Source: Ignavibacteriales bacterium (lineage in GTDB: Bacteria > Bacteroidota > Ignavibacteria > Ignavibacteriales > Melioribacteraceae). Taken from it: a stretch of DNA of 64,000 bases. Within the stretch, counting starts at the first letter, position 1. Each line of letters starts with the position of its first letter. A program made the translations under genes and the position numbers. This document shows positions 37,574 through 59,504 of this stretch, piece after piece. The notes beneath the pieces were generated by a model, which saw only the letters and a list, made by a program, of their open reading frames with translations, did no database searches and had not been told where the DNA came from. Where the stretch lies: contig JAPLFG010000002.1 of NCBI GenBank assembly GCA_026390795.1, positions 1-64,000 on the forward strand. The letters run 5' to 3'.

Positions 37574-37647
37574 GGCGCGTTCGTCTAGTGGTCCAGGACG
37601 CCGCCCTCTCAAGGCGGAGATCACGGGTTCGACCCCCGTACGCGCTA
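37574..37647 (+). tRNA. tRNA-Glu (anticodon CTC)
   Basis: The 74-base sequence folds as a complete cloverleaf. The acceptor stem is GGCGCGT with ACGCGCT (G1-T72 wobble), the anticodon stem CCGCC with GGCGG, the loop CTCTCAA with anticodon CTC at 37608-37610, and the T arm ACGGG, loop TTCGACC, CCCGT. The discriminator base is A and CCA is not encoded. Its 3' half is repeated at 37918-37974, with a GIY-YIG gene between. Confidence 0.96.
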
Positions 37648-37666
37648 CATTTTTTTATAGTCGGTT

Positions 37667-37912
37667 ATGTTGATGTTTGCTTATTTATTAAGAAGTATTA
37701 AGGATGGTACCTACTACTACGGATCAACAAAAGACTTAGAGAGTAGATTAAAAGAACATAATAATGGAAAAGTTAAGTATACAAAGGGGCACCGACCTTA
37801 TAAATTGCACTATTTTGAAGAATTCACCTCAAGGAAAGAAGCTTTTGAAAGAGAAAGATTTTTCAAGTCGATAGATGGATATAACTGGCTAAAAGAGAAG
37901 GGGATAATTTAA
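37667..37912 (+). CDS. GIY-YIG nuclease-domain protein
   Basis: The 81-residue protein is a stand-alone GIY-YIG domain: YLLRSIKDGTYYYGSTKDLESRLKEHNNG (the GIY/YIG strands appear as TYY and YYG, with Arg at about residue 28), then PYKLHYFEEFTSRKEAFERERFFKS, which supplies the conserved Glu. This YhbQ/UPF0213-like group contains single-strand or structure-directed nucleases. It begins 19 bases after the tRNA and ends 5 bases before a broken copy of the tRNA 3' half. So it looks like the cargo of a small mobile unit. An internal ATG at 37673 is also possible. Confidence 0.88.
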   Translation: MLMFAYLLRSIKDGTYYYGSTKDLESRLKEHNNGKVKYTKGHRPYKLHYFEEFTSRKEAFERERFFKSIDGYNWLKEKGII

Positions 37913-37917
37913 ATAAA

Positions 37918-37974
37918 GCGGAGATCACGGGTTCTCCCGAAGGGACTCCTACGGAGGACCCCCGTACGCGCTAC
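37918..37974 (+). repeat. Displaced tRNA-Glu 3' half with hairpin insert in the T-loop
   Basis: Bases 37918-37934 repeat 17 bases of the tRNA (anticodon stem through T-loop start) and 37958-37974 repeat 17 bases of its end. Where the intact tRNA has one G, this copy has 23 bases (37935-37957). They form two adjacent mini-hairpins, TCCC-GAA-GGGA and CTCC-TAC-GGAG. The copy has no 5' half and cannot make a tRNA. Confidence 0.9.
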
Positions 37975-37978
37975 TATT

Positions 37979-38004
37979 AGGGAAATTATTTGTTTCCCTT
38001 TTTT
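37979..38004 (+). terminator. Terminator after the displaced tRNA half
   Basis: A 7-bp stem AGGGAAA / TTTCCCT around TTATTTG runs into a row of six T. It probably was the terminator of the original tRNA gene before the GIY-YIG unit came between. Confidence 0.82.
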
Positions 38005-57326: not shown

Positions 57327-59504
57327 ATGGAAATGACAATTAGCATAAAACACCAGCGGATGCTGGAAGATCTGCTTAAGATTTGCAGAACAAATCTTCC
57401 TACCGTTAATGAAGCGCTTATAAAAAAAGCGTTTCAGTTGAGCTATGAGTCGCACAAAAATGATTTCCGAGCTTCCGGCGAACCTTATTTTAACCACCCG
57501 TATGAAGTTGCAATGATTGTAGCACGGGAAATTCCACTTGATGATATATCGGTTATAAGCGCGTTGCTTCATGATGTTGTTGAAGACAGCGACATAGAAC
57601 TTGATTTTATTACCAAAGAATTCAGTAAAGAAATTTCTGAAATTGTCGACGGCGTTACAAAGATCGGCGGCGTTTTCAAAGGACAGGAAATTACACAAGC
57701 AGAAAATTACCGCAAACTTCTTCTCTCGATGGTAAAAGATGTACGAGTAATACTTGTAAAATTTGCAGATCGTCTTCATAATATGCGTACTCTTGAATTT
57801 GTTCATCCGCAGAAGCAGAGAAGAATTGCTAAAGAGACTTTAGAAATTTATGCACCGTTCGCACACCGTTTTGGATTAGGAATCTTGAAGTGGGAACTTG
57901 AAGATCTTGCGTTCAAGTATCTGAACAAAGAAGCGTATGAAGACATCGCTAAAAAAATTAAAAGCACGCGCAAGGAAAGAGAGATCTTTATAAATAGATT
58001 CTCCAAACCGATTGTTGAGAAGTTAACCGAACACCACATGAAATATGAAATTGGAGGGAGACCAAAACATCTTTACAGCGTTTATCGCAAAATGATAATT
58101 CAGAACAGACCATTTGAAGATATTTATGATTTACTCGCTATACGTATTATACTTGAGAGCAACGATGCGAATGAATGCTATTATGTGCTTGGAATAATAA
58201 ATCAGCTTTACAAACCGATCCCGGACCGCTTCAAAGATTTTATATCAATTCCTAAAAAAAATAATTATCAATCAATTCACACAACGGTAATTGGGCCTGA
58301 TGGGAAACTGATAGAAGTACAGATACGTACACGGAAGATGCATGAAATTGCAGAGAAAGGTGTTGCCGCACATTGGAAATACAAAGAGAATTCTGTTGCC
58401 AATGATAAAGATCTTGAAGAGTGGGTTAACTGGATACGCGATGTTTTCGAACATTCATCAAAAGATGAAGCTACAAAAGAAATTCTTGCCAGTTTTAAAC
58501 TCAATTTATATCAAGATGAGATTTACATATTCACTCCAAAGGGTGAATTGCGACGGCTGCCGTTAAATTCAACACCGGTGGATTTTGCTTTTGAAATCCA
58601 TAGTAATGTCGGTTACAAATGTATCGGTGCAAAAGTGAATGGGAAAATTGTTCCGCTCGATACTGTAATTCACAGCGGCGATCAGGTAGAAATCATCACA
58701 TCTAAAAATCAACATCCGAATAAAAGCTGGCTGCAGTTTGTCCAGACTCACAAAGCAAAAAATAATATCCGGAAATATTTAAATAAGGAAGAAGAACAAG
58801 TTCTTGATGCCGGTAAAGAGATTTGGAATCATAAAATTAAAAAGCTGAAACTCTCTTTCACGCCGGATGATTTATTAAAGCTTGTCCGCAAACTTAAATA
58901 TGATAACAACAGACAATTTTTTAAAGCCATTGCTCAAGACAAAATAAACTTGGATGAAATACTAAATCCTAAAATTGAGACGGAGGAGAAAGCAACTCCG
59001 GAAGTTCAATTCGAAAAATTTATTGATATAGCTAGAGGAAATGCGGGGGAAGTTGTTGTTGAAGGAGATCATAAAGGATTTGCTTACTCTTATGCTAAGT
59101 GCTGTAATCCGGTTCCCGGAGATCCGGTAATCGGCTATATAACTATCGGTGAAGGAATTAAAATCCACCGGAAAGATTGCAAGAACTTGATTAACATGGT
59201 TAAGACAAATCCGGACCGTTTAGTGCCGGTTACTTGGCCTAAAGAAAATGGAGCGTTTTTTGTCGCCGGACTTTCAATTCGCGGAGATGACGTTCCCGGA
59301 ATTCTTAAAGACATTTCAAACAGTATTACTACTTATCAGAATACGAATATTAAATCTGTGAACATTACAACCGGCGATTCTCTTTTCAAAGGTACGATTA
59401 CGGTCTTTGTAAAAGATTTAGATCATCTCAACAAATTAATAGAGCGTTTGAAGAAGAACCGTGGGATTTATTCTGTCGAACGGTTTGACGCTGATAATCA
59501 ATAA
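57327..59504 (+). CDS. rel: Bifunctional (p)ppGpp synthetase/hydrolase
   Basis: The 725-residue protein has the complete Rel layout. The HD hydrolase domain has its metal residues present (H57, H82-D83, E87-D88 in LLHDVVEDSD). The synthetase domain carries the RFKD loop near residue 302, which in this family marks the bifunctional class. A TGS domain (about 400-460), a Cys-containing region (YAKCCNPVPGD) and an ACT domain at the C-terminus follow. It makes and degrades the alarmone ppGpp. Confidence 0.96.
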   Translation: MEMTISIKHQRMLEDLLKICRTNLPTVNEALIKKAFQLSYESHKNDFRASGEPYFNHPYEVAMIVAREIPLDDISVISALLHDVVEDSDIELDFITKEFSKEISEIVDGVTKIGGVFKGQEITQAENYRKLLLSMVKDVRVILVKFADRLHNMRTLEFVHPQKQRRIAKETLEIYAPFAHRFGLGILKWELEDLAFKYLNKEAYEDIAKKIKSTRKEREIFINRFSKPIVEKLTEHHMKYEIGGRPKHLYSVYRKMIIQNRPFEDIYDLLAIRIILESNDANECYYVLGIINQLYKPIPDRFKDFISIPKKNNYQSIHTTVIGPDGKLIEVQIRTRKMHEIAEKGVAAHWKYKENSVANDKDLEEWVNWIRDVFEHSSKDEATKEILASFKLNLYQDEIYIFTPKGELRRLPLNSTPVDFAFEIHSNVGYKCIGAKVNGKIVPLDTVIHSGDQVEIITSKNQHPNKSWLQFVQTHKAKNNIRKYLNKEEEQVLDAGKEIWNHKIKKLKLSFTPDDLLKLVRKLKYDNNRQFFKAIAQDKINLDEILNPKIETEEKATPEVQFEKFIDIARGNAGEVVVEGDHKGFAYSYAKCCNPVPGDPVIGYITIGEGIKIHRKDCKNLINMVKTNPDRLVPVTWPKENGAFFVAGLSIRGDDVPGILKDISNSITTYQNTNIKSVNITTGDSLFKGTITVFVKDLDHLNKLIERLKKNRGIYSVERFDADNQ

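Follow-up and report, generated by a model that had tools for sequence, protein, structure and literature searches.

The window, a stretch of 64,000 nucleotides from the genome of an Ignavibacteriales bacterium, contains an intact tRNA-Glu gene, which is followed by a small gene encoding a GIY-YIG nuclease and, beyond it, by a second copy of the tRNA 3′ part that is split by 22 bases able to form two 4-bp hairpins with 3-base loops (Table 1). A sequence-only reading of the stretch had described the locus in much the same terms. The 81-residue GIY-YIG gene beside an intact tRNA-Glu is borne out by the ARAGORN tRNA call and by the match to the Pfam family GIY-YIG (PF01541; E 1.5e-15), and the terminator said to follow the displaced copy is present as a terminator-like hairpin with a T run at 37979-37999. 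The close adjacency of tRNA and ORF stands, the spacing being 18 and not 19 bases; likewise, the second copy of the tRNA 3′ part is real, but its matches to the intact gene comprise 19/20 and 18/18 positions rather than twice 17, and the interruption of the T-loop by TCCC-GAA-GGGA and CTCC-TAC-GGAG measures 22 bases (37935-37956) instead of 23. From the repeat spacing of 326 it follows that the insert relative to an empty tRNA gene amounts to 326 bp and lies in the T-loop, between TTC and GA. Because the identical layout recurs in relatives, the layout in the window is not due to chance. The observation is real and wider than first stated, the window unit being one member of a large family.

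Table 1. Features of the tRNA-Glu locus, numbered as in the window, and family members residing in protein genes (G000 is the genome of the window)
Feature	Position or locus	Strand	Basis
Intact tRNA-Glu (CTC)	37574-37648	+	ARAGORN; identical to tRNA-Glu of the empty-site relative G029
tRNA-Glu 3′ end, supplied by the element on the insertion reading	37631-37648	+	Within intact tRNA-Glu
Leader, tRNA to nuclease gene	37649-37666	+	Sequence
GIY-YIG nuclease gene, 81 aa, bare catalytic domain	37667-37912	+	Pfam PF01541, E 1.5e-15
Displaced tRNA copy before the hairpins (anticodon loop to TTC of T-loop)	37915-37934	+	19/20 identical to 37611-37630
Hairpin 1, TCCC-GAA-GGGA	37935-37945	+	Covariation, 16 distinct copies
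Hairpin 2, CTCC-TAC-GGAG	37946-37956	+	Covariation, 16 distinct copies
Displaced tRNA copy after the hairpins, read as old native 3′ end	37957-37974	+	18/18 identical to 37631-37648
Displaced tRNA terminator	37979-38004	+	Terminator scan, stem 37979-37999; similar one in G029, G021, G022
Entire 326-bp insert, lying between 37630 and 37957 if read as an insertion	37631-37956	+	Repeat spacing and empty-site comparison
Protein-gene members	G000:C2:267324-267554 (L002/L086), L109, L111, L114, L116, L118		
Protein-gene members, further	L124, L129, L135, L144, L145		

The Pfam match of the nuclease spans residues 4-67, and the residues Y6, Y17, G19, R27, H31, and E63 are invariant in seven aligned proteins. 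The AlphaFold2 model (mean pLDDT 96) is confident over the full length; with 81 amino acids, a single Pfam domain, and a model that is confident throughout, a separate DNA-binding part is absent. The phage nuclease SegB is larger than the window nuclease and has further domains. By sequence and fold, the nearest solved relatives are UPF0213 proteins (1zg2, 1ywl), followed by SLX1. The UPF0213 or YhbQ-YazA proteins, too, consist of a bare GIY-YIG domain of about 80-100 amino acids, and we know of no link between them and tRNA copies; SLX1 differs in being, according to the titles of the structure entries, a cellular enzyme for branched DNA with SLX4 as partner, and not a mobile element. Relatives of the window protein occur in Listeria, Bacillus, and other records. 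A search with this protein returned ten phage records (six from Listeria, two from Staphylococcus, two uncultured or unnamed) and four plasmid-collection records, all of them below 60% identity; the protein and peptide-pattern searches made revealed no carrier among phages, plasmids, or virus contigs, the one peptide pattern searched in viral contigs having yielded no relative. The nuclease ORFs are under purifying selection. Values of dN/dS ranged from 0.02 to 0.46 in those 18 of 24 pairs for which they were computable, synonymous sites being saturated in the other six, and the window ORF compared between G000 and G027 gave 0.08.

For the comparison of empty and filled sites, 30 tRNA-Glu loci from genomes of the host's GTDB family were considered. 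Three genomes from the host's genus (G029, G021, and G022) have an empty site, with the terminator and a ferredoxin-like gene directly following the tRNA-Glu; in G000 and G027 the site is filled, and a like terminator together with the common ferredoxin-like gene is found 3′ of the displaced copy. Filled and empty alleles coexist within one genus, and the presence of the unit is patchy. It had been proposed that the unit entered the tRNA gene, restored its 3′ end from its own sequence, and pushed the old end and terminator downstream, and at this site the comparison agrees: the old tRNA end and a native-type terminator lie downstream, a complete 3′ end lies upstream, and the intact tRNA-Glu of the carrier G000 is identical to that of the empty G029. 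The proposal was to fall if the GIY-YIG gene occurred at this place without a tRNA copy, which is the case at none of the 30 loci, or if similar genes lacked the hairpin pair, which is found at related loci. At 25 nt (G024) and 52 nt (G006) 3′ of the tRNA-Glu there is a hairpin-bearing copy, the space between them being too short for a nuclease gene; in G015 and G017, pseudo-copies lie 5′ of the tRNA-Glu. G066 carries two copies of tRNA-Glu(CTC), both identical to that of the window and about 2 kb apart (G066:C61:55397-55471 and 57500-57574), unlike most genomes searched, which have one match for the window tRNA-Glu(CTC).

Within the host genome, tRNA-Cys (L003) is the site of another clear unit. 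When genomes were searched with a profile built from seven proteins, 73 of the 79 in the GTDB family matched at E 1e-5, as did 141 of 296 sampled from the phylum at E 1e-12. In total, 162 distinct ORFs from 54 genomes were tabulated, all from loci found or fetched in the genome searches; the higher-scoring matches were fetched and not every match of the 79 genomes, so that the sample is weighted towards the former and the shares given here refer to that sample. L009, which is the same contig as G027:C10, was counted once. Among the 128 ORFs scoring at least 60 bits, 112 are tRNA-linked, having either an intact tRNA or tmRNA within 300 nt (85 ORFs) or a chain of tRNA fragments of at least 24 nt; in the opposite-strand control, fragments of at least 24 nt accompany none of the 128 ORFs and a shorter tRNA hit accompanies 11. 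A looser first count had given 115, three of which rest on fragments below 24 nt, namely E016 and E035, which are found in tRNA-Cys and tRNA-Ser contexts with shorter fragments, and E091, a protein-gene case whose 18-nt tRNA hit is chance-like. Thirteen of the 128 ORFs (12 and E091) belong to a class residing in protein genes with no tRNA, and the sole unexplained ORF, E023, groups with a tRNA-Cys lineage on the tree. The nearest intact tRNA or tmRNA is invariably on the strand of the ORF (85/85), upstream in 59 cases and downstream in 26.

A restriction of the unit to tRNA-Glu does not hold, since 12 tRNA isotypes are targeted by the ORFs scoring at least 60 bits, Ser being the commonest, and tmRNA is the target in L189. 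There, the hairpin pair is located in the T-loop of the tmRNA 3′-end copy. At another locus (L004/L168; G000:C5:245804-246037), the tmRNA gene is followed on its own strand by a GIY-YIG ORF of the family, and a tmRNA copy is not evident. Lower-scoring ORFs are tRNA-linked in 21 of 34 cases by the looser test. Of the best 23 loci from outside the GTDB family, 21 contain an intact tRNA or tmRNA and 16 pass an automatic test for a fragment copy with internal insert; beyond these 16, such a copy is visible by eye in L180, L184, L185, and L202. At L050 (G019), L025, L042, and L018, contigs terminate inside or beside units, as if the repeats broke the assemblies, and unit counts in draft genomes would then be lower bounds. 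The family consists of a selfish-looking unit of 0.3 kb, composed of a tiny nuclease gene and a broken, hairpin-bearing tRNA copy, which is present in tRNA genes of many bacteria of one phylum.

Two layouts of the unit are found. In layout A, represented by the window, the intact tRNA is followed by the ORF and a hairpin-bearing 3′ part; in layout B (e.g., L024, L027, L038, L041, and L043), a hairpin-bearing 5′ part precedes the ORF and the intact tRNA. Simple entry with restoration of the 3′ end, as envisaged at the outset, agrees with the window site but not with these mirror-image units, which restore the 5′ side instead, nor with the tRNA-Cys locus L223 of G062. When the latter is compared with its empty counterpart L224 of G060, the copies flanking the intact tRNA on either side are of a different allele, and the copy is situated beyond a native-type terminator resembling that of the empty relative. 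From this allele and the position of the terminator it is seen that a simple split does not explain every locus; for G062, either a later exchange of the intact tRNA or a different route of entry would have to be assumed.

Units are also stacked at single tRNAs. The tRNA-Asn stack of G063 comprises two lineages with 39% protein identity; in G018, tRNA-Ser(gct) has one unit on each side (G018:C107:38453-39069, L104) with proteins that are 46% identical, and the proteins of the tRNA-Ser(gga) stack are about 55% identical. As different lineages share one tRNA, plain slippage is no explanation for these stacks. The notion that the proximal unit of a stack is the youngest was discarded, several distal units being broken but the proximal ORF in G018 being frameshifted, and the order of age, judged by eye, was not counted as evidence, the G063 stack holding two different lineages. 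Some units are decayed. Hairpin-bearing partial tRNA copies with no nearby nuclease gene are seen at L203 (121-nt period), L204 (106-nt period), L205-L209, L057, and L073, partly in tandem, as if non-autonomous units had been moved in trans.

The location of the hairpins was evaluated for the clean insertions, which make up 43 of 74 distinct events. With an expected share of 0.268, 36 of the 43 lie wholly inside hairpin loops of the tRNA, and the result is retained when each combination of isotype and position is counted once (20/25, p 4.5e-8); a few clean insertions are situated outside loops. Insertions are usually located in the T-loop (after TTC), in the anticodon loop, or in the D-loop on its 3′ side. 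Copies of the Cys, Asn, and Pro tRNAs differ in that a hairpin substitutes for a stretch of the tRNA sequence (arm strands) and is not added to it. A pattern search that demanded a T-loop-like right flank, and that misses the window pair, returned 13 hairpin-pair sites in three of seven genomes; at all eight inspected loci bearing the pattern, the pair follows a T-loop-like GTTC stretch, to be read with the flank required by the pattern itself in mind.

For covariation, 16 distinct 22-nt inserts were chosen by length, two of them from ORF-less copies. In this set, 99.2% of the cells of the twin hairpins are paired, and both-sided changes are found in seven of the eight pairs, with 24 such cells versus 6.3 in shuffles; sliding of the hairpin partners abolishes the signal. 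The twin hairpins are maintained through compensatory changes. For the window copy by itself, the structure of minimum energy, as RNA or as DNA, is a longer T-stem and not the twin hairpins; a search across the loci for covariation of this competing outer stem found none. Because the covariation backs the twin hairpins and not the outer stem, the former are preferred despite the fold of the single copy.

Conservation of the copy was followed in eight ORF pairs, four of which are comparable over the copy, the rest having a contig end or another layout. In three of these four pairs, the hairpin copy is more conserved than the synonymous sites of the ORF: for Glu in G000/G027, 2/60 positions of the copy with hairpins differ compared to 13/44.7 synonymous sites (p 2.5e-4); for Cys in G049/G050, 1/51 compared to 35.5/45.7 (p 2.5e-16, exact count); and for Asp in G078/G074, 0/45 compared to 9/44.3 (p 1.1e-3). 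The Cys copy of G000/G027, which contains a 20-nt insert further on, differs at 7/49 positions and is not clearly conserved (p 0.078); within its hairpin, the loop has changed and the stem has not. Conservation of the tRNA part could result from gene conversion with the intact tRNA, that of the hairpin stems could not. The arms of the copies match the co-resident tRNA at 2078/2092 positions within 12 nt of the junction, a figure biased by alignments that were chosen for similarity; arm length is highly variable.

A tree was calculated from 121 of the 128 ORFs, leaving out those with an internal stop or fewer than 55 amino acids; it is based on few columns, and many of its forks are open. Traits were mapped after reduction to a single row for each combination of genome and isotype and removal of one unassigned row, which gave 96 rows; the isotypes of E016, E035, E044, and E061 were labelled by hand, and the protein-gene class was treated as one state. 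Isotype, with 13 states, changes 14 times, as opposed to a mean of 62.9 and a minimum of 57 in 200 shuffles. For host genome, 89 changes are counted (shuffles: mean 85.7, minimum 81), and for host genus 66 (shuffles: mean 73.6, minimum 69), the latter being a weak signal. Since changes of isotype are few and those of host genome are like the shuffles, it is the target, much more than the host, that the lineages follow, and the weak host-genus signal indicates that part of the spread was vertical.

The 12 protein-gene ORFs on the tree form one clade (SH-aLRT 100). Their hosts read as integrase, REP-type transposase, and four-helix genes. The ORFs are flanked by inverted repeats of 13-17 nt, e.g., ACCCCGTGAGATA / TATCTCACGGGGT (12/12 examined, one mismatch allowed), and in eight of the 12 the host frame is open for at least 45 residues on both sides of the insert. 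These inserts may be spliced or may simply break the host gene. The class suggests that the GIY-YIG family acts on DNA targets besides tRNA genes. In G002, two ORFs are seen by eye at different sites of a single integrase-like gene.

Since tRNA genes are essential, the residence of a parasite within one of them is puzzling; the 0.3-kb unit seems to solve this by carrying the missing part of the tRNA. The unit is probably a minimal selfish element of the homing type, with the loop of one kind of tRNA as its target. We infer cleavage and movement from its architecture, the empty and filled sites, the loop positions, the covariation, the purifying selection, the conservation of the hairpin copy in three of four comparable pairs, the isotype-following lineages, and the stacks, all of which are shown by the present data. 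The small GIY-YIG nuclease would break an element-free tRNA gene in a loop, which would be the T-loop in the present case (TTC|GA), and the break would be repaired from an element-carrying copy, with pairing via the tRNA sequence itself. With tRNA sequence on both sides as repair homology, entry into genomes sharing nothing but the tRNA would become possible. The unit would supply the missing part, by which the essential gene is kept whole, and the old part would be displaced to the far side, where the paired hairpins at the old cut site would keep it from being cut and from functioning as a tRNA; they may double as a docking structure for the nuclease. The intact tRNA would stay a target, allowing units to stack at a single tRNA. 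A homing pattern is indicated because a lineage keeps one target across hosts, sites are found filled and empty, the insertion stretch is conserved, and the target gene remains whole. With free-standing GIY-YIG homing endonucleases the unit shares a catalytic domain with the core residues, the lack of a surrounding intron or intein, and a position in or beside the target with filled and empty alleles. The separate DNA-binding part that defines this class is absent from the unit, and the statement that the unit works like such an element is better supported than the statement that it is one.

Precedents exist for several of these traits. A nuclease element carrying its own copy of the end of its target gene occurs in Allomyces, where the endonuclease ORF of atp6/ORF360 reportedly supplies a duplicate gene end in place of the old end, which is displaced; that element is mitochondrial, has a protein-gene target and a larger ORF, and is not known to have hairpin-filled loops. 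SegB of phages T4/T6, a free-standing homing endonuclease of the GIY-YIG type, is encoded among tRNA genes (PMC13096335, PMC2988022); its cleavage is concentrated within tRNA genes, and through its activity a segment with tRNA and nuclease gene is amplified in tandem (PMC13096335). The reverse complement (converted here) of the motif given for it, RAWTSGAAC (PMC13096335), is GTTCSAWTY and fits the T-loop consensus GTTCGAATC, where many of the hairpins sit; the window T-loop, GTTCGACCC, departs from this consensus. As far as these accounts go, SegB resembles the unit in its GIY-YIG fold, its setting among tRNA genes, a motif fitting the T-loop on the other strand, and tandem copies of tRNA and nuclease. 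It differs in being phage-borne, the unit being chromosomal, and the relevant passages of PMC13096335 and PMC2988022 describe neither a displaced hairpin-bearing tRNA copy nor an isotype preference. Among known systems, SegB is the closest functional precedent. The double-hairpin elements of fungal mitochondria consist of two adjacent stem-loops, are in some cases inserted in RNA genes, and are thought to be mobile (PMC10085805, PMC4618339). Two adjacent stem-loops of conserved structure are likewise present in the 16 distinct 22-mers analysed here; the fungal elements are mitochondrial and mostly intergenic, with no partner nuclease reported in the relevant passages (PMC10085805, PMC4618339), unlike the pairs of the window type, which lie in tRNA-loop copies beside a nuclease gene.

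Two facts do not fit easily with plain homing. One is the tRNA stretch ahead of the hairpins, for which plain homing has no use; the other is that the intact tRNA of a carrier should still be cut: the displaced tRNA-Glu site is interrupted by hairpins in carriers, yet the intact tRNA has the sequence of the empty relatives, and a blocked old site therefore does not explain immunity. This leaves room for a guide role of the copy. The hairpin copy, as RNA or single-stranded DNA, would then pair with the tRNA gene by its arms, the hairpins would hold the nuclease, and the cut would be made at the bulge. Such a course is consistent with a bare domain that has no obvious sequence reader and whose lineages nonetheless keep one isotype, with arms matching the co-resident tRNA (on the similarity-chosen, biased alignments), with the conservation of copy and hairpins beyond synonymous sites in three of four pairs, and with SLX1, a branched-DNA nuclease, being among the nearest solved relatives. 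It is rendered unlikely by the wide variation in arm length, by the existence of ORF-less copies, and by the fact that an isotype read by the arms would not require the protein lineages to follow isotype, which they do. Taken further, and to be rated just as unlikely, the unit would be a new kind of minimal element, in which a bare nuclease domain is docked by a piece of the target gene, interrupted by paired hairpins at the cut point, and is thereby directed to any cognate tRNA gene; members of this family would also enter conserved motifs of integrase, transposase, and four-helix genes via inverted-repeat hairpins, and ORF-less copies would be moved in trans.

It is decidedly improbable that the protein is a toxin cutting one kind of tRNA as RNA, with the hairpin copy serving as an uncuttable antidote RNA. 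Nucleases of tRNA act in tRNA loops, which is where the insertion points lie, the lineages are isotype-specific, and the gene invariably shares its strand with the nearest intact tRNA (85/85). However, many copies are halves unable to fold as a tRNA, for which reason an antidote RNA mimicking a tRNA is only a weak rival, and in the Cys, Asn, and Pro copies the hairpin even replaces arm strands. Thirteen ORFs of the family reside inside protein genes that have no tRNA, and in hinting at DNA targets other than tRNA this class counts against a tRNA toxin, as do the SLX1 relatives, which, by their structure entry titles, act on branched DNA.

Transposition of the REP/RAYT or IS200/IS605 type, in which the twin hairpins would be ends moved as single-stranded DNA and the tRNA a mere landing place, has very little probability. 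Paired structured ends, ORF-less hairpin copies that are partly in tandem, and the inverted repeats around the ORF in the protein-gene class would be in line with it; the unit, however, has no HUH transposase, its hairpins are at one end only with tRNA sequence on both flanks, and each nuclease lineage keeps its own tRNA. Membership in these element classes as such was rejected on the lack of an HUH (Y1) transposase, the gene of the unit being of the GIY-YIG type. Most improbable of all is immobile tRNA-linked debris, i.e., partial tRNA duplications beside a vertically kept repair-type nuclease with hairpins as hypermutable palindromes, for which the weak host-genus signal, the decayed units, and the not clearly conserved tRNA-Cys copy of G000/G027 might be cited, against patchy presence within one genus, a tree sorted by isotype and not by host genome, purifying selection on the ORF along with a copy conserved in three of four pairs, and different lineages stacked at a single tRNA.

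Two further classes of elements were considered and rejected. A tRNA-site island of the tyrosine-recombinase type does not apply to a 326-bp unit with one GIY-YIG ORF and no integrase gene, with repeats interrupted by hairpins, and with insertions also in D- and anticodon loops. A group I or II intron is contradicted by the lack of a ribozyme-core Rfam match at the gathering threshold in 17 distinct loci; at this threshold, eight loci from the own genome yielded only tRNA or tmRNA, and L001 only tRNA.

The minimal homing-type element thus proposed for bacterial tRNA genes has no counterpart in the literature searched, a search made at the abstract level with subscription papers and bioRxiv mostly outside its scope. 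We likewise know of no earlier description of a nuclease unit in tRNA loops with a hairpin-bearing copy. Its repeated, isotype-sorted, hairpin-marked copies constitute many natural replicates, by which target choice, immunity, and the role of the hairpins are directly testable, and a coupling of paired hairpins to a nuclease would make the movement of such hairpins testable as well. For annotation it should be borne in mind that tRNA pseudogenes and GIY-YIG genes beside tRNAs in this phylum can be one element. In L015, from Patescibacteria, two tandem GIY-YIG genes are located between short inverted repeats, beside a possible small gene of the zinc-ribbon type.
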